Below, in pieces: positions 8,345-27,968 of a DNA stretch of 64,000 nt. A program made the translations under genes and the position numbers. The stretch comes from Melioribacteraceae bacterium (GTDB taxonomy: Bacteria; Bacteroidota; Ignavibacteria; Ignavibacteriales; Melioribacteraceae). Position 1 is the stretch's first letter. Every line of letters begins with the position of its first letter. The DNA is taken from NCBI GenBank assembly GCA_016927595.1, contig JAFGMI010000007.1, forward strand, positions 62,001-126,000, read 5' to 3'. The notes under the pieces were generated by a model that was not told the origin of the DNA, searched no databases, and saw only the letters and a list, made by a program, of their open reading frames with translations.

Positions 8345-9934
8345 TCATGCAGTTAAAGTAGAATTAACTACATCAATCAATTGTTGCTCTTCAAAAGGTT
8401 TCGGAATTAAATGTTCAACTCCCAGATCCTTGTACTTCTGAATCAACTCATCATCAAACTTGGCAGATATTACCACAATCGGTACGACAAATCTCTTGTC
8501 CCTTTTACGTACGGCTTCAATCAGTTGTATGCCGTTCATCAGAGGCATATCATGATCTGTAATGATCAAAGAGGGCAGCTCTCCCATAATGCTGCTCATC
8601 GCCTGATAACCGTTTCTGGCTTCAACCACACGATAATTTAGACTGCAGGAATCAATAATCTCTTTGTACAAATGCCTTATTTCATGATCATCTTCAATTA
8701 TTAAAATTATATTTTGTGCTTCAGGCAGTGTAAAATGAAATTCGCTTCCCTCTGCAATTTTCGAATAAAACCAAATTTCACCGCCATGTTTTGTTATAAT
8801 CTCTTTTACGAGATTTAATCCCATTCCGCTTCCTTTTTCCTTAGCTGTACCTTTCTCGATAAATTTCTGATCAATCTTGAACAGCTTTTCCTGATTCTCC
8901 TCGCTTATTCCAACGCCTTCATCCTTAATTATCACTTCAATCATACCTTCCTTAAACCTGTTTGCACTTATATATACCTTTTTTCTCCTCTCACTGAAAA
9001 TGATTGCGTTCTTCAGCAGGTTATGAACAGCTTCGCCTACCAACCGTTCATCGGCGCTGACATATAACTCGCTGCCTACCTGAACTACAATTTCAATATC
9101 CTTCTGAACTGCATTGCGTGTTAAAAGCGACACCTGATTGCTGATAATATCCCTTATCGATACCCTTTTTATTTCAAGTCTTGTTTTACCTGTTTTAAGC
9201 CTCGACCAGTCGAGCAAATTATTTATAAACTGAAGCTGCAAACTGCTTGCTGTATGAATATATTCGAGGTACTCCAGACGCTCCTTTTCAACAAGATCTG
9301 GCTCATTCAGAAGTATTTCAGAAAAACCAAGAAGACTCGTAAACGGCGATCTTAAATCATGAGATATTATATTTATAAATTTATCCCTTTCGTCAAGTGA
9401 TGCTTCGATGGATTTATATAATGATTCAAGTTCTACCTGTCTCGACATGAACTCCGTAATATTGGATGTTATACTTTCACATCTTACTACATTGCCGCTT
9501 TCATCGCTCTGTATAAAGAATGATTCGTGGAGGTATACAACTCTCTTTTGTTTTGAGATTACCCTGTAACGTATCTCACATTTTTCGTCTACGGACCCGG
9601 TAAGAAGATGTGTATATTTTTTTTTAACATTTTCAAAATCATCGTGATGAATGATAGATAATAATTTTCCCGGCATTGCTGATAATTCTTCGTTGGAAAA
9701 ACCGGTTATTGATTTTACGGAATCTGAATACTTTATTTTTGAAATATCATCGGGATCAAACGATGTCCTGAAGTATCCCTCAAAACAACACTCCCCGTTC
9801 TTGTTCGCACCAATATTAAAAATGTTTTCCGCATCGTTAGTTAAATCGGCGAACAGGTCCAAAAGTTCATTAAAAGAATTTTCATCCTTCGATAAATCGC
9901 GCAATTTCTCCAGTAAAAAGCTGGTTTTTTTCAT
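8345..9934 (-). CDS. Hybrid PAS sensor histidine kinase with C-terminal receiver domain
   Basis: HDLRSPFTSLLGFSE H-box, DEGVGISEENQEKLF, GSGMGLNLVKEI; receiver ILIIEDDHEIRHLY...ITDHDMPLMNG...VISAK. Confidence 0.9.
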   Translation of the reverse strand: MKKTSFLLEKLRDLSKDENSFNELLDLFADLTNDAENIFNIGANKNGECCFEGYFRTSFDPDDISKIKYSDSVKSITGFSNEELSAMPGKLLSIIHHDDFENVKKKYTHLLTGSVDEKCEIRYRVISKQKRVVYLHESFFIQSDESGNVVRCESITSNITEFMSRQVELESLYKSIEASLDERDKFINIISHDLRSPFTSLLGFSEILLNEPDLVEKERLEYLEYIHTASSLQLQFINNLLDWSRLKTGKTRLEIKRVSIRDIISNQVSLLTRNAVQKDIEIVVQVGSELYVSADERLVGEAVHNLLKNAIIFSERRKKVYISANRFKEGMIEVIIKDEGVGISEENQEKLFKIDQKFIEKGTAKEKGSGMGLNLVKEIITKHGGEIWFYSKIAEGSEFHFTLPEAQNIILIIEDDHEIRHLYKEIIDSCSLNYRVVEARNGYQAMSSIMGELPSLIITDHDMPLMNGIQLIEAVRKRDKRFVVPIVVISAKFDDELIQKYKDLGVEHLIPKPFEEQQLIDVVNSTLTA

Positions 9935-10064
9935 AGAAACAAGTATTTTATTTAGCTAAATATTTAATATAATAAAATAGTACTGAATTCAACACCAGGT
10001 TTTCATGAGCAATTAGAACTAACAACAAAGTCGTTGTGTTTAACTACAAAAATACGAGGAAATA

Positions 10065-12344
10065 TTGAAGTATATAATGGTTTTATTGGTTTTGAGCTGC
10101 ACTACATTATTATATCCGCAATCGAACACAGGGATTATTTCAGGCACAATTATAGATAAAATTTCAAAGCAGCCGCTTCCAGGTGTGAATATTCAAATTC
10201 TGGGAACTCTTCTTGGTGCATCAAGTGATCTTGACGGTAATTATTTAATCCGGGCGGTGCCTGTAGGATTATACCAGGTTCGCGCTTCATTTATTGGCTT
10301 CGATACTGTAACTAAATCTGACGTTACAGTTAATAGCGCAAGACCGGCAGTAATAAATTTCGAACTTGCAGAAACCTCGATTGAGCTTGAGGGAATTACA
10401 GTTACATCCGATTACTTCGATTTTAATCCAACCGAAGTAAACAGTATAAAGAGTTTTAGTTATGAAGAAATTCGGCGTGCCCCCGGTGGATTTGAGGATG
10501 TTGTCCGGGCATTATCGGTTTTACCAGGTGTTGCTCAGGCAAGCGCGGGCAGAAATGATCTTGTAGTAAGGGGCGGCGCTCCGTCTGAGAATCTTTTTAT
10601 TGTAGACGGATTTACAGTGCCGAACATTAATCACTTCGGAACACAGGGAGCAACAGGCGGTCCGTTAAGTTTTATTAACCTTGATTTCGTAGATAAAACA
10701 ACTTTCTCCACCGGCGGATTCTCCGCAATGTACGGAGATAAACTTTCCTCGGTGTTAAAAATAGACCTGCGACAAGGCAGATCCGATCATATAGGTGGTA
10801 AAGCTCTTATTTCCGCTACACAGTTCGGATTCAACAGCGAGGGTCCGATAAGTGATAATGCAAACTTTATATTTTCGGCTAGAAGAAGTTATCTTGATTT
10901 TATATTTAATGCAGCTGGTTTTAATTTTGTGCCTGAATACTATGACGTACTGGCGAAAATCGATTACAATATCGACACAAAAAATAAAATAAGTTACCTT
11001 TTCGTTTCCGCCTTTGACCATGTGAATTTCAATAATAAAGATGAGGAAGACATCTACGATAACGCTAATATACTGGGTAGTAATCAGATTCAGTATGTTA
11101 CAGGTATTTCTTACAGAAGATTAATCGATAATGGATATTATCGTTTAAGCCTGAGCAGAAATTTCGTTGACTACGATTCTTTTCAGAATGATACCCTGCT
11201 TCAGCCTCTTTTCAGAAATAATTCGAGGGAAGGCGAAAATGAACTTAAAGCCGAACTTGTTTACAAACTATCGGGCGTTTCTGAAATAAATCTGGGTGCT
11301 TCAGTAAAAGCAATAAAATTTTCCTCAGATATACTATTCCCTGATAATTTCAGAACATCTTTCGGCGAAGTGCTGCCCGTAACAAGTTTTAGCACTGAAA
11401 AAAGATTTATGAAATATGGTGCGTTTGCACAGTATAGCAATATGATGTTCAGCAGGTTAAGGGTGAATTTAGGATTAAGGGCAGATTATTTTAGTGCAAT
11501 CGAACAACCGCTGACTCTTAATCCCCGTTTTTCTGCGTCTTATATGCTGGATGAAAACACATCGTTAAACTTAAGTACAGGACTATACAGCCAGTTCCCA
11601 TCTTATATATGGCTGGCAGCCGGACAAAACAATAAAAATTTAACGGCTGTTAAGGTGATACAGTACATAGCAGGCATAGAAAGAAGACTCCGGAGTGATA
11701 CAAGAATTAAGCTCGAGGCTTTTTACAAGGATTATTCCGATTACCCGGCTAGTTTAATTCGTCCTTACCTGGTGCTTGCTAATACAGGTGCGGGATACGG
11801 CGGTGCGTCGAAGAATTTCGAATCACTTGGTCTTGAGCCTTTAACAAGTGCTGGCAGCGGAACGGTGCAGGGACTTGAACTTTCGTTACAGAAAAAATCT
11901 TCTGAACTTCCGTATTATGGAATCTTGTCTGCGACTTACAGTGTAAGTCAATTTGAAGGATTAGATAACATTGAGCGGACAGGGGCTTACGATCAAACCT
12001 GGATTCTGAGTATTAGCGGCGGGTATATTTTTGACGCTAACTGGGAGGCTTCATTGAAATTCAGAGCTTCAACGGGTAATCCGTTCACACCTTATAATAA
12101 CGACGGTACCCAAAGTATAAAAAATTACCTTACCGAGCGGTTTGAACCGTCTCATAGTCTCGATCTCAGAGTCGATAGGCGATGGGATTTCAACGGCTGG
12201 TCGATGATAACATATTTGGATATACAAAATATTTACAACAACAAAAACGTAACCAATATAACCTGGAACTACAAGGAAAAGAAAGCCGATACTAATGCCA
12301 GTATAGGTATATTGCCCTCCATAGGAATTAATATAGAATTTTGA
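10065..12344 (+). CDS. TonB-dependent outer-membrane receptor with N-terminal carboxypeptidase-like domain
   Basis: GTIIDKISKQPLPGVNIQILGTLLGASSDLDGNYLI, then plug (DVVRALSVLPGVAQASAGRNDLVVRGGAPSENLFIVDGFTVPN) and barrel. Start may be the ATG at 10077. Confidence 0.88.
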   Translation: MKYIMVLLVLSCTTLLYPQSNTGIISGTIIDKISKQPLPGVNIQILGTLLGASSDLDGNYLIRAVPVGLYQVRASFIGFDTVTKSDVTVNSARPAVINFELAETSIELEGITVTSDYFDFNPTEVNSIKSFSYEEIRRAPGGFEDVVRALSVLPGVAQASAGRNDLVVRGGAPSENLFIVDGFTVPNINHFGTQGATGGPLSFINLDFVDKTTFSTGGFSAMYGDKLSSVLKIDLRQGRSDHIGGKALISATQFGFNSEGPISDNANFIFSARRSYLDFIFNAAGFNFVPEYYDVLAKIDYNIDTKNKISYLFVSAFDHVNFNNKDEEDIYDNANILGSNQIQYVTGISYRRLIDNGYYRLSLSRNFVDYDSFQNDTLLQPLFRNNSREGENELKAELVYKLSGVSEINLGASVKAIKFSSDILFPDNFRTSFGEVLPVTSFSTEKRFMKYGAFAQYSNMMFSRLRVNLGLRADYFSAIEQPLTLNPRFSASYMLDENTSLNLSTGLYSQFPSYIWLAAGQNNKNLTAVKVIQYIAGIERRLRSDTRIKLEAFYKDYSDYPASLIRPYLVLANTGAGYGGASKNFESLGLEPLTSAGSGTVQGLELSLQKKSSELPYYGILSATYSVSQFEGLDNIERTGAYDQTWILSISGGYIFDANWEASLKFRASTGNPFTPYNNDGTQSIKNYLTERFEPSHSLDLRVDRRWDFNGWSMITYLDIQNIYNNKNVTNITWNYKEKKADTNASIGILPSIGINIEF

Positions 12345-16735: not shown

Positions 16736-18478
16736 TTACTGCGAAACCAAATCCATCCCGGCAAAACAATCGATATACTTACGACGTTTTTCCTGTTTTA
16801 TTTTATCCACATCCACAAGAATCAATCCGTCTATACAGTTTTCAAAATCTTTGTCAACGCCGAAATCAAGAAATCTAACACCGTCCTCGAAACATAATTC
16901 GGTATAGTGCTTGTACAGCACAGGAACAGTTACACCGAATCCCTTCATCATTTTTTTTAGTATCAGATAATCTGACTTATAATTACTTCCGTTGAATATT
17001 TTCTGGTATTCGGATATTGTTTTATCGGGAATCTTAAATCTGTTTTTAGAATTTGCATAATCATTAATTGATCCGAACCATTTATTATAAAAATAAACCA
17101 GCATTTTTTTCGATTCCTCAGGATAACTGTTGCTGATACTGACTGGTCCGAACAGAAATTTGATTTCAGGATTTCCGGAGATGAATGCACCAATACCCAG
17201 CCAAAGATAATTCAGTGCATTGGAATTCCAGTATTTCTTTTGAACAAAACTTCTTCCCAGTTCAATTGAATTGGGTAGAATTGTATCTCTGAAATGTTTC
17301 TTAAAACCAAACAGGGTGGAAGTATAAAAACCTGCTTCACCGTGATCTTCCAGAATACGCTTCCCTATTCCGATCCGGTAAGAGCCGACTATCTCCAAAT
17401 CTTTATCATCCCACACAACAATATGCTTATAGTGTCTGTCGAATTTATCAAGGTCAAGTTTTTTTCCGCTTCCCTCACCGACACTTCTGAAAGTGATTTC
17501 TCTAAGCCTCGCAATTTCCTTCAGTACATTAGGCGCTTCCCAGATATCAAGAAGCAGAATCTTTTTGTTATCTTTTGTAATACCGAGAATTTCTGCTTCA
17601 TCAATTTCCCTGCGCAGTAATTTAACATCAACCGGATGAATTATATTTTTTTCGGTAATATAAATTCCCTCTTCGCGTCTTGTTAATTTGTACAGATGTT
17701 TTCTCAGCAACTTAGTCTGTGTTCTGATATTTATGAAATTTGATGAGAATGCTTTTGCGGGGATGGGATCGCCTATTTTTAAATTAATAAGCTTATTCCT
17801 TTTATTAAAAAGTTCATGCGACAGCATCAGTCTTGAAAATTTTTTGCTAACCGCCGAAGTCAGATAGAATAAAAGTGAATTTTTTGCTTTAATACAGACG
17901 GGTAAAATGGGTGAGTGAAATTTTATCGCAAAGTGTACCGCTCCTTTATTCCACTTACCGTCAACAACTTTGTAAAATCGCAACCTCGATACTTCACCTG
18001 CAGGGAAAAGTATAACCGCTTGTTCTTTCTGAAGTGCATCGCCAATTGCGTTTAAGTTCTCCCTCTGAATTGACTTTGATTCCAGATTAAAGGGCAGCAG
18101 AAATTCGTTTAGATTACTGAAAACACTCAGTATATCATTTGCAACAATTTTAACGTCCTGTCTTACATTGTATATCGCACTTATAAGCGCTAAACTATCA
18201 AGACTGCCGATAGGATGATTAGCCACTATAATCAGTCTGCCTTCAGCCGGTATTTTTTTCACATCCCTGTTCGAAATCCTGTATGAAAAATTAAGGTGTT
18301 CGAAAATCTCATCAATGAATTGTATTCCATAATCGTACTTATGTTCTGTTAAAAAATCGTTGATCTGATTTATATGTAATATTTTTGCAAGACTCTTCAG
18401 AATTATTGATTGAATAAATACCGGTTTGTTGAGTAAACCCGGATATCGGCTGTTAAGTAACTCTTTAAGATCTATCAT
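16736..18478 (-). CDS. OlsF-like bifunctional acyltransferase (PlsC-like N-terminus, OlsB/GNAT-like C-terminus)
   Basis: N-terminal IVANHPIGSLDSLALI...ILFPAGEVSR; C-terminal LREITFRSVGEGSGKKLDLDKFDRHYKHIVVWD...GSYRIGIG...ELGRSFVQKKYWNSNALNYLWLGIGAFI. Confidence 0.8.
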   Translation of the reverse strand: MIDLKELLNSRYPGLLNKPVFIQSIILKSLAKILHINQINDFLTEHKYDYGIQFIDEIFEHLNFSYRISNRDVKKIPAEGRLIIVANHPIGSLDSLALISAIYNVRQDVKIVANDILSVFSNLNEFLLPFNLESKSIQRENLNAIGDALQKEQAVILFPAGEVSRLRFYKVVDGKWNKGAVHFAIKFHSPILPVCIKAKNSLLFYLTSAVSKKFSRLMLSHELFNKRNKLINLKIGDPIPAKAFSSNFINIRTQTKLLRKHLYKLTRREEGIYITEKNIIHPVDVKLLRREIDEAEILGITKDNKKILLLDIWEAPNVLKEIARLREITFRSVGEGSGKKLDLDKFDRHYKHIVVWDDKDLEIVGSYRIGIGKRILEDHGEAGFYTSTLFGFKKHFRDTILPNSIELGRSFVQKKYWNSNALNYLWLGIGAFISGNPEIKFLFGPVSISNSYPEESKKMLVYFYNKWFGSINDYANSKNRFKIPDKTISEYQKIFNGSNYKSDYLILKKMMKGFGVTVPVLYKHYTELCFEDGVRFLDFGVDKDFENCIDGLILVDVDKIKQEKRRKYIDCFAGMDLVSQ

Positions 18479-18502: not shown

Positions 18503-18829
18503 CTATTCCAGATTTCCTCCGATGAGTTTCAATCCAATGATCCCGATCGCGATTAATGAAAGGAAAAACAGTTTGATCAGATCGTAAGGTTTCTGGTAGA
18601 CAACTGACTCGAAAACGGTTATACCGATAACGGCAATTCCCATCCAGATTGCATAAGCAATCCCCATGGGAATGGATTTTAAAGACTGCGAAAAAAAGAA
18701 TGCACTTGTAAAGCCGAAGAATCCGTAAAAAAGTATCGGAATAAATTTTGTAAATCCTTCGGTATGTTTAAGACTTATAACCCAACCGATTTCCATTATT
18801 CCTGCTACAAGAAGTGCTATCCAGTTCAT
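18503..18829 (-). CDS. Small multidrug resistance (SMR) family transporter
   Basis: MNWIALLVAGIMEIGWVISLKHTEGFT...YAIWMGIAVIGITVFESVV, four TM helices. Confidence 0.9.
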   Translation of the reverse strand: MNWIALLVAGIMEIGWVISLKHTEGFTKFIPILFYGFFGFTSAFFFSQSLKSIPMGIAYAIWMGIAVIGITVFESVVYQKPYDLIKLFFLSLIAIGIIGLKLIGGNLE

Positions 18830-18841
18830 TTTATTGTTCCC

Positions 18842-19612
18842 TTATTTCCTTTTGAAACTTCTGAAAGCATATATCAATTGAGAGAAATAGTCGTTGGGGA
18901 AATCAGTTTTTAATCCGTACTGATCCGGTTTATTTTCCGGCAGATAATCAGTATGAAAAACCCAATCCCAGACGGCAAGTTTTGTTGCAAAATTCCTGTT
19001 CCTTCCCTTACCGATAGAATGGTGCCAGCGGTGCATTTCAGGACCATTTATCAGTAACTGCAACCGCCCTGACTTTACATCGATATTAGAATGAATGTAC
19101 ATCCCCCATACCGCGCTTATTACACCCTTGTAAACTGCAACTTCGGGAGATGCTCCCAGAAGCACAATGGGAAGAAACTCCACGGTTTGATTTATTAATA
19201 TTTCCAGCGCATGCGATCTTACCCCTGACAACCAATCAACTTCTTTGGTTGAATGATGAGCTTCGTGTAATCGCCAAAGGAATTTATTTTTATGCTGCCA
19301 TTTGTGAAAAAAATAAATATACAAATCGTGAGAAACTGTGAAGATGACAAGCTGAACCCAGACGGGTATTCCTTCTAAGATTTTTAGTCTGGAAACGCCT
19401 GTTGAATTGTCGATAAATTCAATAATGTATGAGATAATAATTCCGAGTAAGAAGGTTTGCAGAAAATTGTAGAATATAATATCATTCCAGAAACCTTGTC
19501 TTAAAATTTTTTGGTTTGGTGTGTATGGAAATAACCTCTCCAGGAAAAAAATTATTAAAGCAGCAATTGCTATAATCAAAAAGGATATATATCTAATTTC
19601 AGTAATGCTCAT
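18842..19612 (-). CDS. Sterol desaturase/fatty-acid hydroxylase family protein
   Basis: Histidine clusters HDLYIYFFHKWQH, HEAHHST and MHRWHHS in a multi-TM protein. Confidence 0.92.
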   Translation of the reverse strand: MSITEIRYISFLIIAIAALIIFFLERLFPYTPNQKILRQGFWNDIIFYNFLQTFLLGIIISYIIEFIDNSTGVSRLKILEGIPVWVQLVIFTVSHDLYIYFFHKWQHKNKFLWRLHEAHHSTKEVDWLSGVRSHALEILINQTVEFLPIVLLGASPEVAVYKGVISAVWGMYIHSNIDVKSGRLQLLINGPEMHRWHHSIGKGRNRNFATKLAVWDWVFHTDYLPENKPDQYGLKTDFPNDYFSQLIYAFRSFKRK

Positions 19613-19618
19613 TTCAGA

Positions 19619-20515
19619 TTATTTAACCAGTGAGAGCGATCTTTTTTCTCTTCTTAATTTCTGGATCGATTTCTTTTCGCTTTCATAAACTTTTTTCATG
19701 CCGTCGCCTAAGGCTTTTTCAATGTCGCGTATATCCTTAACTAGTCGGAACATACCGTTAATTTCAACCGAAGCTGCCTGATCGCTTCCCCACATGGCTC
19801 TGTCAAGGGTTATATGTCGCTCGACAAATGTAGCCCCGTTGGCAACCGCCGCATAAGTGGGAGCCAAGCCGGTTTCGTGTCCCGAGTAACCTATGGGAAT
19901 ACCGGGGTATGAGTCCTTAAATGATTTAATAACGTTTATGTTCAGCTCCTCGAGCTTGCATGGATACGATGATGTAGATTGTGCAAGCATAATTTTTTCA
20001 GTTCCCAGAAGATTAATCGCTGCATCAACTTCTTCCAATGATGACATTCCGGTCGACAGCATCATCGGTTTACCCGTTTTCTGTGTATGCAGCAGCAGTA
20101 AATGATCTGTTAATGAGGCAGAAGCCAGTTTATACATCACCGGATCAAACTGCTCTATAAAATCAACGGATTCTTCATCCCAGCATGAAGCAAACCAATC
20201 AATCCCTTTGGACTTGCAGTACCTATCAATTAAATCGTATTCGCCGAAACCAAATTCGACTTTATGTCTGTACTCTAAATAAGTCATGCGTCCCCACGGC
20301 GTGTCTCGTTCGACATTCCATTGATCCTTCGGTACGCATAATTCGGGTGTTCGCTTCTGAAATTTAACGGCGTCACAACCCGCAAAAACAGCACCGTCGA
20401 TCAACTTTTTTGCAATTTCGAGTGAACCATTATGATTTATACCAATTTCAGCAATTATATAAACCGGCTCGCCGTCACCTATATATCGGTTACCAACTTT
20501 AATTTTTGCTCCCAT
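19619..20515 (-). CDS. NeuB/SpsE-family PEP-dependent sugar-acid synthase
   Basis: YIIAEIGINHNGSLEIAKKLIDGAVFAGCDAVKFQKRTPE, KLASASLTDHLLL, MMLSTGMSSLEE, GYSGHETG, VERHITLDRAMWGSDQAASVE. Start chosen at MGAKIKV. Confidence 0.93.
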   Translation of the reverse strand: MGAKIKVGNRYIGDGEPVYIIAEIGINHNGSLEIAKKLIDGAVFAGCDAVKFQKRTPELCVPKDQWNVERDTPWGRMTYLEYRHKVEFGFGEYDLIDRYCKSKGIDWFASCWDEESVDFIEQFDPVMYKLASASLTDHLLLLHTQKTGKPMMLSTGMSSLEEVDAAINLLGTEKIMLAQSTSSYPCKLEELNINVIKSFKDSYPGIPIGYSGHETGLAPTYAAVANGATFVERHITLDRAMWGSDQAASVEINGMFRLVKDIRDIEKALGDGMKKVYESEKKSIQKLRREKRSLSLVK

Positions 20516-20545
20516 CTTAATACTCCTAACCAATTTTATAGTTTA

Positions 20546-21049
20546 CTAATATTTTAATTTTATTATAAGTTCTGCAAAATCCCTGAAAGCTCCGTAACCG
20601 CCGCGATTTTCGACAATAACGTCTGCAGTTTCCCTCGCAAAAATTGTTGCATCTGCCGGACAAGCTGAAAGACCAACCGTATTCATTACCTCGATATCAT
20701 TTGTATCATCACCTATATAAGCTATTTCATCATTATTAAAATTGTATTTCTCCATTATATGATTTAGTACTTTTTTCTTATCCTTCACTCCCATATGAAT
20801 CTCTGTTATTTTTAATTTTTCAGCTCTTCTTTTGACTATTACGGAATCTTCACCCGTAATTATTCCGGTCTCTATCCCGCGAACAGTACGTAATCTTTCA
20901 ACGCCCATTCCATCCCTGTATGAAAACCTCTTCAACTCTTCACCATTCCCGGAGTAATAAATACCCGTGTCAGTTAATACTCCGTCGCAATCGGTTAATA
21001 CAAATTTGATTTTCCGTGCTTTATACTTTAATTCCTCTAGCGTAACCAG
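20546..21049 (-). CDS. KdsC-type HAD-family phosphatase; start codon unclear
   Basis: The track ORF (20935) omits the catalytic motif. The same frame upstream reads LVTLEELKYKARKIKFVLTDCDGVLTDTGIYYSGNGEELKRFSYRDGMGVERLR; downstream GDDTNDIEVMNTVGLSACPADA. No ATG/GTG/TTG lies in frame before the DxD; 21049 is a CTG placeholder start. Confidence 0.75.
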   Translation of the reverse strand: MVTLEELKYKARKIKFVLTDCDGVLTDTGIYYSGNGEELKRFSYRDGMGVERLRTVRGIETGIITGEDSVIVKRRAEKLKITEIHMGVKDKKKVLNHIMEKYNFNNDEIAYIGDDTNDIEVMNTVGLSACPADATIFARETADVIVENRGGYGAFRDFAELIIKLKY

Positions 21050-21076
21050 ATAACTCTCATTTAATTTTTCTCCTTT

Positions 21077-21886
21077 TTACCAAATCGTCCAGCCTCCGTC
21101 AACTACAAGATTAGCTCCAGTCATGTACCTTGATGCGTCACTGGAAAGAAATACCAACGCTCCCTGATAATCTGACGGGGCAGCCATTCTTCCAAGCGGA
21201 GTTCTATCCGAGTATTGCTTTATAAAATAGTCGCCCTGTGAATTTTCCACACCTCCCGGTGATAAAGCATTCACTCGTACATTCCGGTTCCCCCAGTATG
21301 CGGCGAGGTATCTTGTAAAAGCAATCACTCCTCCTTTAGTTGCAGAATAGGCTGGAGGTTTATAAAATTTCTGGTCGCCCTTTTCATCCTTATACAAAGA
21401 TTGCACAGGTGCCACTATTCCGTATGTAGATGCTATGTTAATAATGCTGCCGCTTTCCTGCTTCGCAAAATGTGATCCTATAATCTGCGAGCAAAGAAAA
21501 ACACCTGTCAGATTAACATTTATAGAACGCTGCCAGAGTTCCAGCGAATAATTTTCGAACATAGAGTGTTGCAGGGAAGACTTTGGTTCTTCGACCATAT
21601 CATTTATCGCGGCATTATTAACCAGAATATCAATTCTGCCGAACTCATTAAGCACTTTATCTTTCAGGGCGGCTATCGAATTTCTATCCGTTACATCCAG
21701 GAAAATACCTATTGAATCAGTTGGAAGTACATCTGCAAACTGACTGCAATTATCTTCATCAGTATCTGCGACAACAACCTTGGCGCCTGCATCCGAAAGA
21801 GCTTTACAGTGATATTTGCCGATTAATCCAGTTGCTCCCGTTACAACAGCTACCTTGTTCTCAAGTGAGAATAATTGAACAGTCAT
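21077..21886 (-). CDS. SDR-family NAD(P)-dependent oxidoreductase
   Basis: VAVVTGATGLIGKYHCKALSDAGAKVVVAD, NNAA, YSATKGGVIAFTRYLAAYW, VVDGGWTIW. Confidence 0.93.
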   Translation of the reverse strand: MTVQLFSLENKVAVVTGATGLIGKYHCKALSDAGAKVVVADTDEDNCSQFADVLPTDSIGIFLDVTDRNSIAALKDKVLNEFGRIDILVNNAAINDMVEEPKSSLQHSMFENYSLELWQRSINVNLTGVFLCSQIIGSHFAKQESGSIINIASTYGIVAPVQSLYKDEKGDQKFYKPPAYSATKGGVIAFTRYLAAYWGNRNVRVNALSPGGVENSQGDYFIKQYSDRTPLGRMAAPSDYQGALVFLSSDASRYMTGANLVVDGGWTIW

Positions 21887-21890
21887 TTTT

Positions 21891-23228
21891 CTAAACCTTT
21901 ATAAGAGGTTTCATATTAAAATTCTCTGTTTTTCTGAATACCGGCTGCACCGGTTTCCCCATTAATAATTTTTCAACAGTACCTTTATTAACAGCTTGCT
22001 TCAGTAGCGAAAGAACTTCCTCGTAAACATAAAGCGTGTAGTCAACATCAACATCTGAATGGGAGTATGACATATTATGGAAGCCAGACCATAAAATTCC
22101 GCGTTTAATCATTTCCTGTTGTACGAAGGACTTAAGTATCAGCGGATCACCGGCAGACTGGTCAAAAGTAACTATGGAGCGGAAATTATAACCTTTACAT
22201 CCGGAGTAATTTAAACCGAGATTAGCCGCGATATGATTATAACCGTCTTTTAATTTCTTACCCTGCAACGCCAGATACGATGTAACGCCATTGTCTCTTA
22301 TTATTTCAATCGTTGCTTTGGCAGCGGCTAATGATAGTGCTTCGCCCCCGAAGGTGGTGTAAAAGAAAACATCATCCTCAGCCAGATTCATTATTTCTTT
22401 TTTGCCGCATAAAACTGACACAGGCATACCGTTTGCAACTGCTTTTGAGAAAGTAGCCAGATCAGCTTTAACTCCAAAATATTCCTGTGCACCACCGACT
22501 GACATTCTGAATCCCGTCCACATTTCGTCGAATATTAAAACTATGTTGTTGCTGCTGCAAAATTCTCTTACTTGCTGAAGAAAATTTTCTTTCGGTTCGT
22601 CAAACACAACCGGTTCAAGTATAACCGCTGCAATGTCATTATCAGCTGCATTTACAAGAGAGTTAATGTCATTATAATCGAAAGTATAGGTTAAACCGGC
22701 AGCTGATTCCGGTATACCTTTGTTACGGCTGGTAACCGAGACATACCAGTCGTGCCAGCCATGATAACCGCAGCATAATACTTTATTTTTACCTGTATAT
22801 GCTCTTGCAAGTCTTACAGCCGCACTGGCAACATCTGCGCCGGTTTTACTGTATCTTACCGCTTCGCAGTTAGGTACCAGTTCATTGAGAAGCTCGGCAA
22901 CCTCAACCTCTAGCGGATGCATTAATGAAAACGTTATACCGTCTTCAAGCTGTCGCTTAATAGCTTCATCAACCTTAGAATACGCATAGCCAAGAGAAAG
23001 GGGTCCAACACCCATGTTGTAATCAATGAATTCGTTACCGTCCGCATCCCAGACATGCGATCCTTTGCCTTTTACCAGATATTTGGGAGCCACTCCGTCC
23101 ACGAATTGAGATGGTCCTTTGGCTAATGTCTGTGTTGCTGAGGGAATTAAATCCTTAGCCCTTTTATAAAGGTTATTAGAATTTGTTATACCAGGGTAAT
23201 CCCTGTTAAATATTACTCCATTCGGCAT
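21891..23228 (-). CDS. Class III (glutamate-1-semialdehyde-type) PLP-dependent aminotransferase
   Basis: LYKRAKDLIPSATQTLAKGP, GSHVWDADGNEFIDYNMGVGPLSLGYA, IFDEMWTGFRMSVGGAQEYFGVKADLATFSKAVANGMPVSVLCG. Start chosen at MPNGVIF. Confidence 0.9.
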   Translation of the reverse strand: MPNGVIFNRDYPGITNSNNLYKRAKDLIPSATQTLAKGPSQFVDGVAPKYLVKGKGSHVWDADGNEFIDYNMGVGPLSLGYAYSKVDEAIKRQLEDGITFSLMHPLEVEVAELLNELVPNCEAVRYSKTGADVASAAVRLARAYTGKNKVLCCGYHGWHDWYVSVTSRNKGIPESAAGLTYTFDYNDINSLVNAADNDIAAVILEPVVFDEPKENFLQQVREFCSSNNIVLIFDEMWTGFRMSVGGAQEYFGVKADLATFSKAVANGMPVSVLCGKKEIMNLAEDDVFFYTTFGGEALSLAAAKATIEIIRDNGVTSYLALQGKKLKDGYNHIAANLGLNYSGCKGYNFRSIVTFDQSAGDPLILKSFVQQEMIKRGILWSGFHNMSYSHSDVDVDYTLYVYEEVLSLLKQAVNKGTVEKLLMGKPVQPVFRKTENFNMKPLIKV

Positions 23229-24144
23229 AGTATTCCGTATTTTTATTTGAAAAAAGTTTTTCCTGTATTCTACGGGCAAGCTGCGGACCAGTAAATCCTT
23301 CATGCTCAATTACATTTTCGAGCAAGCCCGGTTTAAACCATCTTTCATTGAGCGCCAGTGGTAATACATTTGCTGTAATTTTATATTTAACAAGAAGTTC
23401 TGAAAGAATAGAGAACAAACCGCCTGTAAGAAAGTGATCTTCTATCGTAACAATCAGTTCACAGTCACGGGCTGCTTCAAGAATTTTTGTTTCATCAATC
23501 GGTTTTAGTGTACGCAGATTCAGCAGACGGACGCTTATTCCATTAGCTTCCAGCAGATCTTTTGCATGCAGTGCATTACCGAAAAGTGTCCCGTAAGTAA
23601 GAATCGCAACGTTATTACCGGAGCCGAAAACTTCGGCACTTCCCATTTCAAAGTTTGAATGTATTACCTGCGACTTAAGATTATTATAGCGTATATAAAA
23701 AGGATCACTACATTGTAAAATTCGGGGCAGACCTTTCATCATATCGGACTCGTCAGCGGGACAGAAAACATTGACATTAGGAATACCTCTCATCAAGGAT
23801 ACGTCTTCAATGGCTTGGTGGGTAGGCCCATTTGCTTCGGAGAGAAAACCGGCAAAACTTCCGACTAATTTGACGGGCAGATTAGAAATGCCGACATCTG
23901 TTCTGATAAACTCAAAAGCTCTCATAGTTAAAAATGATGCAAGTGCATGTACAATCGGGTATCTGCCTCTCAGTGCAAGACCTGCAGAGATGCCTACCAA
24001 CGTCTGTTCCGTAATTCCGGTATCAATAAAATTATTTTTTATTTTATTCGGCAGGTTTCTTATCGCTGCTCTGTTTTCGGCAGTGAGCACAATAAACCGT
24101 TCATTTTTCAGGACGAGCTCGGTTAACATTTCTTCATAATTCAT
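23206..24144 (-). CDS. Transketolase, C-terminal subunit
   Basis: FIDTGITEQTLVGISAGLALRGRYPIVHALASFLTMRAFEFIRTDVGISNLPVKLVG...GPTHQAIEDVSLMRGIPNVNVFCPADE. Confidence 0.92.
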   Translation of the reverse strand: MNYEEMLTELVLKNERFIVLTAENRAAIRNLPNKIKNNFIDTGITEQTLVGISAGLALRGRYPIVHALASFLTMRAFEFIRTDVGISNLPVKLVGSFAGFLSEANGPTHQAIEDVSLMRGIPNVNVFCPADESDMMKGLPRILQCSDPFYIRYNNLKSQVIHSNFEMGSAEVFGSGNNVAILTYGTLFGNALHAKDLLEANGISVRLLNLRTLKPIDETKILEAARDCELIVTIEDHFLTGGLFSILSELLVKYKITANVLPLALNERWFKPGLLENVIEHEGFTGPQLARRIQEKLFSNKNTEYYAEWSNI

Positions 24145-24145
24145 A

Positions 24146-25003
24146 TTATCTAACCATCATTGTATTTGATTTGAGTTCTGCTTTATTGTTTCCATGGAGT
24201 TCTTGAAGTAAACCATCTACTTCTTCATCGGTAAACTTACAGAACCACCTGTCGGCTTTGTTTGTAATACTTGGAAGACCCTTGCCTCTCTCGGTTTCAG
24301 CAATTACAACTGAAACTCGTTTCTTCTCAAACGGGAACTGATCAAAAACGTTTTCCATATCGTTAAAATCATGACCATTTACGGTTTTCACAGCACAGTT
24401 AAAGGATTCAAATTTTCTTTCAAGAGGTTCAAGCGGAATTAATCTTTCGGTAGGCATATTTGCCTGTAACATATTTCTGTCGATTACAATTACAAGGTTG
24501 TCGAGTTTTAATGATGACGTAACTAGAATTGACTCCCATACGGATCCTTCATTTAATTCACCGTCTCCCAGAATTGTCACAACCTTATTTTTTTTCTTTT
24601 TCATTTTGCAGTCTATAGCGACTCCTGCGGAAACTGCCAGCAGATGACCAAGCGATCCGCTGTGGAATTCGACACCTGGAATTTTCCTGTTGGGATGCCA
24701 GTAAATATTGTCATTAACCGAGCAATGGTTTTCGAGTCGTACGGCATCAAGCCAGCCGAGCTCGGCGAAAGTCCCGTAAAGAGCCGGTACATCATGTCCC
24801 TTGGATAAAAAAAGATAATCCCTATCCGGATTATCAAGTTTTGAGTAGCTGATCCGGAGAAACCTTTTGTACAGATAGACTATCAGATCGGTACAGGAAA
24901 GAGATGCACCTATAAAACATCCGCCTCTTGCTGTTAATCTTATTATGTGTTCCCTCACTTTTAGGGAAATATCCGCAAGTTCTGTTAATTCAATTTTATT
25001 CAT
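24146..25003 (-). CDS. Transketolase, N-terminal (TPP-binding) subunit
   Basis: GGCFIGASLSCTDLIVYLY, LFLSKGHDVPALYGTFAELG, VTILGDGELNEGSVWESILVTSSLKLDNLVIVIDRN TPP motif. Confidence 0.93.
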   Translation of the reverse strand: MNKIELTELADISLKVREHIIRLTARGGCFIGASLSCTDLIVYLYKRFLRISYSKLDNPDRDYLFLSKGHDVPALYGTFAELGWLDAVRLENHCSVNDNIYWHPNRKIPGVEFHSGSLGHLLAVSAGVAIDCKMKKKKNKVVTILGDGELNEGSVWESILVTSSLKLDNLVIVIDRNMLQANMPTERLIPLEPLERKFESFNCAVKTVNGHDFNDMENVFDQFPFEKKRVSVVIAETERGKGLPSITNKADRWFCKFTDEEVDGLLQELHGNNKAELKSNTMMVR

Positions 25004-25808
25004 TGCCCGCTTTTTTATATTTGTTCTTAAAGTGATCTATGTGTGAGAGTTCGTCTAGATGATTATCGTACCAGTACTGTCCGGCGTATTTTCTATTAAT
25101 GGATTTCAGGAAAGGCTTCGATTCCAGAAGTTCAAGAATCTCATGAAGTCCGAACCATGGTTTTTCTTCGTATAATTCTTCAAAGACTGTTCTTATAAAA
25201 ATATAGTCCTCTTCATAATCTATCGTCCATCGATAAGTGGATGAATAATCTAACTCCGTTTCCCATTCGATGTTGCCTATCCTGAACAATTCAGGTCTTT
25301 CCCATATATACGGTGTAGTATGCTCGCGCTCAAAATCCTTGTGCGCATGCTGCCATGCTTTTTCAAGTGCTTTAAAACTCATGATTTCCACATCGTTCCC
25401 GTCAGGATAAGTAGCCGGATGAAGATTACTCACATAATCGTACAGATAATGCTGATCTGAATAGTACTTTATAACCCTATCAATAACCTGCGGATCAATA
25501 AGCGGGCAGTCCGACGGTATTTTAACGACAGCATCAGCGTTAAACTTTTTTGCTGCCTTGTAATGTCTGTCCAGCAAATCCGTTAAATGACCGCGGTAAA
25601 TTGAAATGTTTTCTTCCCTGCAAAGCTCAGCTATCTGGTCGTCTTCTTTTCTGCGTGATGTAATCACCACAATTTCCCCTGCATATTCAGACTGTTTAAC
25701 ACGTTCGTACATTCTCAATAAAAGAGGCTTACCCGCTAAAGACAGCATAATTTTTTGCGGGAGTCTTGAAGAAGACATTCGAGCCTGTATAAGAGTTACT
25801 ACCTTCAT
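24996..25808 (-). CDS. SpsF/NeuA-like cytidylyltransferase family protein
   Basis: VVTLIQARMSSSRLPQKIMLSLAGKPLLLRMYERVKQSEYAGEIVVITS and VKIPSDCPLIDPQVIDRVI. Confidence 0.92.
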   Translation of the reverse strand: MKVVTLIQARMSSSRLPQKIMLSLAGKPLLLRMYERVKQSEYAGEIVVITSRRKEDDQIAELCREENISIYRGHLTDLLDRHYKAAKKFNADAVVKIPSDCPLIDPQVIDRVIKYYSDQHYLYDYVSNLHPATYPDGNDVEIMSFKALEKAWQHAHKDFEREHTTPYIWERPELFRIGNIEWETELDYSSTYRWTIDYEEDYIFIRTVFEELYEEKPWFGLHEILELLESKPFLKSINRKYAGQYWYDNHLDELSHIDHFKNKYKKAGNE

Positions 25809-25810
25809 CT

Positions 25811-26821
25811 TTATGCCCCGGATAATTGATAAAACGTGTTCGGACTATAAATAGCTTCTCTGTTCTGTTCAAGAAGATTTCTTCCGACTGCTGCAATATT
25901 AGCTGCAGATCTGCCGCCGTTCTGAATGGGTGTCATTTTCTTAAGGTCTTCCAGATTAAAATAAGAATAGACCTGTTTGCCCAGCGCTAATCCTACATAA
26001 ACAACCGATGAATATTTGGTAACCAAAACATCACAGTTGGCAATCATTTCATTAATGTTGCCGTCAGTGAATACAAGTGCTGCCGGCGCGTATTTCTTGA
26101 TTTCATTGATAGCTCTGTGGGAGTTTTCATTCGGATGAAGTTTAAAGATAAGAGGTTTATTTCCTGCCAGTTCAAGAGCTTCGAAAATAAATTTCTTTCT
26201 GTTCTCGTATTTAAATGTTTCTCTTGCATCGGAAGTTGCGACTAATACATAATTTTTGAAAGGGAATTTATTGTTCAGATATTGTTTACAATCGTCAAAA
26301 TTCGGTATCCCGGTTACTTCAATTTTTGCGGGATTAACACCTTTACTTATAAATAAATCCCTGTAACCTTCTGAGGCAACACAGAATTTGTCGTATGCAT
26401 CGGACAATCCGGTTGTTGATGTGCTGGCCAGGTATCTAGGCAGCCCCAGCCATTTGACCAGATAATACATTAAGTTTTCTGGATCTGTCATCCCTTCCTG
26501 AACTAGAATCAGACTGGATTTTTTAATATTCTCAGGAACAATAAGATCTGAACACGTGAAAATTAAATCGTAATTACGCTCCTTACCCTGATAATCGATT
26601 TCTAATTTTTTTTCTATAAGGAATTTTTCAGTCTTTCTTTTAAATTGTCCTCCTAAAACTGTAAACTCCAAAAGACCCGAATTTCTGAAGAACTCAATAT
26701 AACCGTCGGAATAAAATGGAGAAAAATAACAATTACAACCGTCAAAGTATTTTGAGATCTCGTACATCATTGTTGTCTGGTTTAATGATCCGCCGATGAA
26801 TAGTATGTTATGTTTTCTCAT
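25811..26821 (-). CDS. GT-B-fold glycosyl/polyol-phosphate transferase-like protein
   Basis: C-terminal KPLIFKLHPNENSHRA...LVFTDGNINEMIANCDVLVTKYSSVVYVGLALGKQVYSY resembles CDP-glycerol/CMP-sugar transferases; first gene of the sugar operon. Confidence 0.65.
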   Translation of the reverse strand: MRKHNILFIGGSLNQTTMMYEISKYFDGCNCYFSPFYSDGYIEFFRNSGLLEFTVLGGQFKRKTEKFLIEKKLEIDYQGKERNYDLIFTCSDLIVPENIKKSSLILVQEGMTDPENLMYYLVKWLGLPRYLASTSTTGLSDAYDKFCVASEGYRDLFISKGVNPAKIEVTGIPNFDDCKQYLNNKFPFKNYVLVATSDARETFKYENRKKFIFEALELAGNKPLIFKLHPNENSHRAINEIKKYAPAALVFTDGNINEMIANCDVLVTKYSSVVYVGLALGKQVYSYFNLEDLKKMTPIQNGGRSAANIAAVGRNLLEQNREAIYSPNTFYQLSGA

Positions 26822-27029: not shown

Positions 27030-27968
27030 ATGCGATTAATTCACCTGTCAGACCTTCATCTTAATTCCGTACACAAAAGAAGCAATATTAAAAAGTTTAA
27101 AAGAACACTTAAGCATGCAATTAAAACAGGGTTTGATCATCTGGTCATAACCGGAGATCTTACAGATAATGCTAACGAAAAAGACTTTATCATACTGCGA
27201 AAACTCCTTGCGCAATATGACCTATTGAATTCTAAACTTGTCAGTATTGTTATTGGTAATCATGATATCTTCGGGGGAGTTCAAACGGCACTTGATGTAA
27301 TAGATTTTCCCAGGAAGTGTTCCTCAATCGATTATGATCAAAAGATTAAAGAGTTCTATGAATACTTCAGGGAATTATTTCGGGATGCATATATGCCCGG
27401 TGCCGACAGTTGTTTTCCATATGCAAAAACAATTAAAGATAAAATACTGATCGGTCTAAATTCAATCGACAGGTATAGTAGATTAAAAAATCCATTTGCT
27501 TCCAACGGTAAAGTGTATAAAGATCAGATGGAAAATTTTAATAAAATCATGAATCAGGAAAGTATTAAAATAAAAGAAAAGATTGTTCTTATACACCATC
27601 ATTTTTATAAAAACAAAGCCAAATCAACAGCTAGTGCAAATGAAACCTGGAATAAAATAGAATCATTTACAATGAAGTTGAGAGGGAAAAAAAGGCTTGT
27701 AAGTCATTTTCATAACGCAGGGATTAAATTAGTTCTTCACGGTCATAGTCACGAAATGAGAGATTACAACAGGGGAGGAGTCAGATTCCTTAATGCGGGA
27801 GCGTCTATAGAAAATGGCGGAGATGATTCCAGCATATTTTTAATTGACTATAAAGACGAATCGTTATTCATAAAACAAGATGAAGTTCCACAAAAAACTT
27901 TTAATCCGATACCAGTTAAATTACCTGATTTTTTTGTACCGAAATTATTAACTCAACCATCAAATTAA
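27030..27968 (+). CDS. Calcineurin-like metallophosphoesterase
   Basis: MRLIHLSDLHLNSV, LVITGDLTD, IGNHDIFGG, LIHHHFYKN, LVLHGHSHEMRDY. Confidence 0.92.
   Translation: MRLIHLSDLHLNSVHKRSNIKKFKRTLKHAIKTGFDHLVITGDLTDNANEKDFIILRKLLAQYDLLNSKLVSIVIGNHDIFGGVQTALDVIDFPRKCSSIDYDQKIKEFYEYFRELFRDAYMPGADSCFPYAKTIKDKILIGLNSIDRYSRLKNPFASNGKVYKDQMENFNKIMNQESIKIKEKIVLIHHHFYKNKAKSTASANETWNKIESFTMKLRGKKRLVSHFHNAGIKLVLHGHSHEMRDYNRGGVRFLNAGASIENGGDDSSIFLIDYKDESLFIKQDEVPQKTFNPIPVKLPDFFVPKLLTQPSN

Follow-up and report, generated by a model that had tools for sequence, protein, structure and literature searches.

A conserved gene cassette of Melioribacteraceae and relatives that combines transketolase and class III aminotransferase genes with a predicted KDN-9-phosphate-type nonulosonate core

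A handful of routes is believed to account for the first steps of sialic-type sugar synthesis, and an operon in a Melioribacteraceae bacterium (assembly GCA_016927595.1, contig JAFGMI010000007.1, positions 62,001 to 126,000; this whole 64-kb stretch is called the window, and all coordinates refer to it) raises the question of which sugar is made, by which early enzymes, and onto what it is transferred. The operon lies on the minus strand, is transcribed from 26821 down to 19619, and comprises eight tightly packed or overlapping genes whose families were confirmed by Pfam, in agreement with the gene order, strand and coordinates of the initial annotation; that annotation named all eight and stopped one gene short, missing a hydroxylase (18842-19612) and the lipid-modification genes. 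In our judgement it is rather likely that this cassette makes and transfers a cytidine monophosphate (CMP)-activated 3-deoxy-nonulosonic acid of the 2-keto-3-deoxynononic acid 9-phosphate (KDN-9-P) type, probably carrying a free or later-modified amino group. In order of transcription, the genes are as follows.

25811..26821, minus strand: GT, putative GT-B-fold glycosyltransferase of 336 aa, first operon gene (weak PF04464 and PF02350; TIGR04396; BFO_1060 glycosyltransferase)
24996..25808, minus strand: CMP, SpsF/KdsB-like cytidylyltransferase, putative CMP-sugar synthetase (PF02348, 1.9e-29; conserved family A8)
24146..25003, minus strand: TKN, N-terminal, thiamine diphosphate (ThDP)-binding subunit of a split transketolase (PF00456; nearest PDB 6yak N-subunit, 4.9e-61)
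23206..24144, minus strand: TKC, C-terminal subunit of the split transketolase (PF02779 and PF02780; nearest PDB 6yaj, 1.2e-61)
21891..23309, minus strand: AT, glutamate-1-semialdehyde (GSA)-type class III pyridoxal phosphate (PLP) aminotransferase (PF00202, 2.5e-47)
21077..21886, minus strand: SDR, short-chain dehydrogenase/reductase-type oxidoreductase (PF13561, 4.7e-51)
20546..21052, minus strand: KdsC/KDN-9-P-phosphatase-like HAD phosphatase, with a frame break or atypical start (NF058599, 162.9 bits)
19619..20533, minus strand: NeuB, short synthase of the NeuB type that lacks a C-terminal SAF domain (PF03102, 3.1e-72)
18842..19612, minus strand: FAH, FA_hydroxylase-family (OlsE-like) di-iron membrane hydroxylase, ninth gene (PF04116, 6.9e-27)

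Among 296 genomes sampled across the phylum, that of the window included, an AT orthologue (54-72% identity, with the next-best group at 33-39%) was present in 43, and all 43 also carry the NeuB orthologue, adjacent to AT in 36 and elsewhere at 66-72% identity in seven; none of the seven AT-negative relatives tested carries it. The order GT-CMP-TKN-TKC-AT-SDR-KdsC-NeuB-FAH is kept among relatives and retained across dozens of genomes at ~45-79% protein identity, and the arrangement is therefore not a product of chance. Two sets of loci had enough flanking DNA for closer comparison, 32 unbiased and 49 named, each with a complete GT/CMP/AT/SDR/NeuB core; FAH follows NeuB in 30 of the 32 and 35 of the 49, and stays beside NeuB where the operon is split, as in genome G005, in which a break between AT and SDR leaves GT-CMP-TKN-TKC-AT and SDR-KdsC-NeuB-FAH as separate blocks. 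The conservation of transketolase and aminotransferase genes with NeuB, which the initial annotation had left to neighborhood analysis, is thus borne out.

By record title, the carriers are Melioribacteraceae, Ignavibacteria, Kapabacteria, relatives of Chlorobi, and Bacteroidales, with a few other titles that are possibly misbinned, and a methanotroph, Methylomagnum ishizawai, also carries the core cassette on a plasmid. G059, a second genome of the window's own genus, has neither AT nor NeuB, and all that is left of the operon is a relic (L240, ~9015-10420) that preserves the 3′ end of TKN and a TKC interrupted by in-frame stops, next to a metallophosphoesterase gene that is itself truncated. 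Whole or partial cassettes also occur in loci titled Myxococcota (L145), Desulfobulbaceae (L162) and KSB1 (L094), by horizontal transfer or misbinning.

The synthase places the core of the pathway. Judged from relatives, NeuB probably starts at an internal ATG (MGAKIKVG...). In a tree of 28 sequences it groups, with support of 100/99, with HAD-phosphatase-linked synthases, while NeuB/Leg and PseI sequences fall into groups of their own; its group includes synthases encoded beside curated KDN-9-P phosphatases (34-43% identity) and a fusion protein from Nonomuraea (55%). Its scores against TIGR03569 (245 bits, cut-off 399.65) and the PseI profile (196 bits, cut-off 340) both fall below threshold, and it is the sole strong NeuB match in the window genome. 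No hydrolyzing epimerase of the NeuC/LegG type and no PseB scored above cut-off in that genome (best 79 bits vs 235.9 and 55 bits vs 407.75, respectively), so that a supply of this NeuB by NeuC or PseB genes elsewhere was rejected for it, and the operon contains no GNAT gene; the absences listed by the initial annotation therefore stand. Canonical NeuC and PseB genes are additionally present in two and three, respectively, of 15 relatives. The Nonomuraea gerenzanensis fusion (L201, 10678-12870), a 730-aa NeuA-HAD-NeuB protein followed by a glycosyltransferase-like gene, is itself likely a one-protein CMP-KDN pathway.

The phosphatase points the same way. Intact copies in relatives measure ~160-190 aa, the nearest PDB structure to the family is the KDN-9-P phosphatase 3e81 (4.5e-45), and its score against the curated family NF058599 (162.9 bits) lies under the cut-off of 180. 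All 10 sequences aligned keep E68 and K79, which correspond to E56/K67, the pair mutated in the 3e81 variants 4hgq and 4hgr and reported to set the specificity of KDN-9-P phosphatase; a separate Kdo (3-deoxy-D-manno-octulosonic acid)-type phosphatase (KdsC) in the window genome has D and R at these positions. In the window, the open reading frame (ORF) called from TTG (20546-20935) begins downstream of the catalytic DxD motif; its frame is open upstream to ~21052 with no ATG, GTG or TTG before that motif, and a well-placed ATG at ~21060, preceded by a good ribosome-binding site, lies in another frame. The gene may therefore have a genuine frame break near its start in this genome, the assembly may contain an error there, or the start may be unusual. 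The lipopolysaccharide Kdo genes are separate: KdtA (PF04413) was found in 30/30 genomes tested and KdsB above cut-off in 29/30, whether or not the operon was present. Taken together, the NeuB tree, the phosphatase residues, the lack of NeuC and PseB matches and the separate Kdo genes argue for a second ulosonate pathway of the KDN-9-P type rather than a Kdo substitute, and the assignment of the NeuB/phosphatase/CMP-transferase/GT core to such a pathway is well supported at the level of sequence. The initial annotation's proposal of a NeuB-type ulosonate operon with its own phosphatase, CMP-transferase and GT is upheld, while its label "Kdo-like" is better replaced by "KDN-like".

The remaining enzymes set the cassette apart. 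AT probably starts at MPNGV..., within the called ORF; its PLP lysine, Lys289, is invariant, its best PDB matches are glutamate-1-semialdehyde aminomutase (GSAM) structures, and it scores 391.6 bits against NF004856, below the cut-off of 486. SDR has PRK09186 as its best NCBIfam match and FlagModPtmA among the others, all below cut-off. On putative viral contigs (L167-L184), distant AT relatives (33-43%) have as neighbors genes for NeuB and a cytidylyltransferase as well as PseB-like and GNAT-like genes. In the transketolase, the ThDP-binding GDG..N motif of TKN (GDGELNEG) is invariant and H70 and H103 are retained, as are the invariant catalytic Glu (E46) and H109 of TKC. The equivalents of H30, H263, H469 and D477 (yeast numbering), as read off profile alignments, are replaced by C/F, W/F, V/P and N, and these changes suggest that the enzyme acts on unusual substrates. 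In Bacteroidales and in one Kapabacteria locus the split pair gives way, at the same position, to a one-piece transketolase of ~660 aa that is only 26-35% identical and has the histidines kept; loci with this substitution are L131, L136, L146, L150 and L163. Replacement by a non-orthologous enzyme in the same slot argues that the transketolase step is genuine, and together with the conserved order it led us to reject the pair as a bystander, although the transketolase is not universal.

Known systems share parts of this gene set. The KDN-9-P pathway (Bacteroides thetaiotaomicron BT1713-1715; Prymnesium parvum, PMC6200933) likewise has a NeuB-type synthase, a HAD phosphatase and a CMP-transferase, and it matches the cassette in the branch of its NeuB and in the specificity residues of its phosphatase; it requires mannose 6-phosphate (Man-6-P) only, whereas the cassette adds the transketolase, class III AT, SDR, fatty acid hydroxylase and its own GT, and its NeuB is at most 43% identical to KDN-locus synthases found in the same phylum. 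NeuB-family condensation and CMP activation are also common to the legionaminic/sialic (NeuC-NeuB-NeuA) and pseudaminic (PseB-PseI) routes, unlike which the cassette has a phosphatase, no GNAT, a SAF-less NeuB in a separate clade, and a host genome without NeuC or PseB above cut-off. In Shewanella, Kdo8N is formed by KdnA/KdnB, an oxidoreductase and an aminotransferase that replace a hydroxyl of the ulosonate by an amine, as proposed here, but these belong to other families (a DegT-type aminotransferase and an iron-type alcohol dehydrogenase), and that route is not known to include a transketolase or a NeuB. The transketolase of Carboxydothermus hydrogenoformans (6yaj/6yak) is also split over two genes and provides the nearest solved structures, yet its canonical His residues are intact, whereas the cassette has other residues there. 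No published pathway combining a transketolase with nonulosonic acid (NulO) genes was found in the open-access papers searched, and a Clostridium butyricum paper lists pentose-phosphate transketolases only; this agrees with the initial annotation, which named no characterized pathway with this enzyme set.

From the observed gene content, conservation, family placement and catalytic residues, we infer substrates, a step order, amination of the sugar and an acceptor. The ThDP transketolase would shift a two-carbon unit on an aldose phosphate (or on the ulosonate), and SDR and the class III AT would exchange a hydroxyl for an amine on either of these two substrates; the short NeuB would join phosphoenolpyruvate (PEP) to the phosphorylated aldose, the KDN-9-P-phosphatase-like HAD protein would strip the phosphate, the SpsF-like enzyme would form the CMP sugar, and the GT-B enzyme would move it onto an envelope acceptor, maybe a membrane lipid modified by the OlsE-like hydroxylase. 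Our certainty falls from amination by SDR and AT, through two-carbon transfer by the transketolase, to the lipid acceptor. In its boldest form, which we hold to be less likely than not, this scheme has ThDP-dependent two-carbon transfer and the exchange of a hydroxyl for an amine, both on a phosphorylated sugar, yield an as yet undescribed amino-nonulosonic acid that is mounted on a hydroxylated membrane aminolipid.

The lipid part of this scheme comes from FAH and from ornithine-lipid genes near the operon; in the window, two accessory neighbors lie downstream.

18503..18829, minus strand: SMR-family transporter, accessory (PF00893, 2.6e-21)
16736..18478, minus strand: OlsF, bifunctional ornithine-lipid synthase, accessory neighbor (NF052615, 725 bits)

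The transporter accompanies 3/32 and 6/49 complete loci. OlsF is genuine by its cut-off (620) and adjoins the operon in several Melioribacteraceae and Ignavibacteria loci, while OlsB/OlsA lie beside it in genomes G089 and G116; 6/10 tested operon genomes having such genes have OlsF or OlsB/OlsA within ~5 kb of the operon, cases that are not independent events and involve at least three lineages. Methylomagnum, with LplT-OlsB-OlsA by its cassette, comes on top of these six. Within the ornithine-lipid set (OlsF/OlsB/OlsA/OlsE), OlsE is the only curated NCBIfam match of FAH (NF052566), but at 110 bits FAH falls far below the cut-off of 475 and occurs where no OlsF or OlsB exists. At the other end of the operon, a divergent calcineurin-like phosphoesterase (27030-27968) adjoins GT and recurs at the operon in many loci, and in another lineage (L060, L070, L072-L074, L077) the gene after FAH encodes a phosphoesterase of a second family. 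In some lineages an LPG_synthase_TM-type membrane protein stands immediately 5′ of GT (L046, 4151-5206; also L050, L053 and L063), a hint of a further lipid link.

Several observations weigh against the scheme. The window's own phosphatase frame is apparently broken at its start, and the operon phosphatase is missing in 8/32 and 8/49 complete loci. FAH is absent from Methylomagnum and several Bacteroidales loci. OlsF and OlsB are absent in 22/32 tested operon genomes and present in 5/31 non-operon genomes, so ornithine lipid as an obligatory acceptor was rejected and can at most be one acceptor among others. A dedicated transketolase is absent in 9/43 genomes, all in the window's order, which have housekeeping-like enzymes at ~30% only; the transketolase may therefore be a tailoring step or one coverable by a housekeeping enzyme, and the initial annotation's idea that transketolase, AT and SDR together build the NeuB acceptor is not established. 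Finally, GT, whose orthologues in operons share 45-65% identity, has an AF2 model (pLDDT 85.6) with a GT-B fold whose best PDB matches are CMP-bound Bcs3 (a capsule enzyme, the top match), UDP-GlcNAc 2-epimerases, TagF and TarL at TM scores of 0.42-0.59; the CMP-bound top match speaks for the scheme, while the match is low (<0.6) and the epimerases score like the transferases. GT could accordingly be read as a disguised NeuC, which we consider less likely, as its C-terminal features, of the TagF type, and its low-scoring matches to GT families suit a transferase.

Given these points, the core might make plain CMP-KDN from Man-6-P, with the transketolase, AT and SDR building another part, e.g., an aminated polyol or lipid head group that receives KDN. 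This would suit the position of NeuB and the phosphatase in the KDN-9-P branch, the genomes that lack the transketolase and keep the other genes, the aminolipid genes nearby in several lineages, and the Kdn-linked sphingolipid reported in a haptophyte (PMC6200933), yet we regard it as rather unlikely, for AT and SDR travel with NeuB nearly without exception, and in ulosonate clusters of viruses and bacteria that have no transketolase, more distant AT relatives still adjoin genes for NeuB and a CMP-transferase, which favors amination of the sugar itself.

The destination of the sugar can likewise be read otherwise. Flagella and capsules are common destinations for the products of NulO operons, and this operon might add an unusual nonulosonate to flagellin, another surface protein or a polysaccharide, in which case the lipid genes would be mere neighbors; the likeness of SDR to PtmA, among others, and the flagellin encoded in the window genome would fit. 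Flagellin as a general acceptor was nevertheless rejected, since 8/18 tested operon-bearing genomes have no flagellin match, and as no flagellar genes were recognized beside the operon and the hydroxylase belongs to the cassette, we give surface glycosylation as a whole only a minor share of belief, although the acceptor may yet be a polysaccharide. The KdsC-like and KdsB-like proteins could also suggest a dedicated replacement of Kdo in lipopolysaccharide, a very improbable reading that was rejected because the Kdo genes described above are universal irrespective of the operon and the window genome has its own KdsC.

An aminated nonulosonate of the KDN-9-P type is thus the reading we favor. 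The cassette has a transketolase and a class III AT where other routes use their standard early enzymes, and its gene content predicts an unknown sugar together with novel enzyme activities, open to in vitro assay of the purified proteins. The repeated ornithine-lipid gene neighborhood makes the acceptor addressable by lipidomics of cultured Melioribacter or Stygiobacter. If an amino-nonulosonate is indeed mounted on an aminolipid, the product would be a bacterial glycolipid, acidic or zwitterionic, of a kind not described before and encoded on a mobile cassette.

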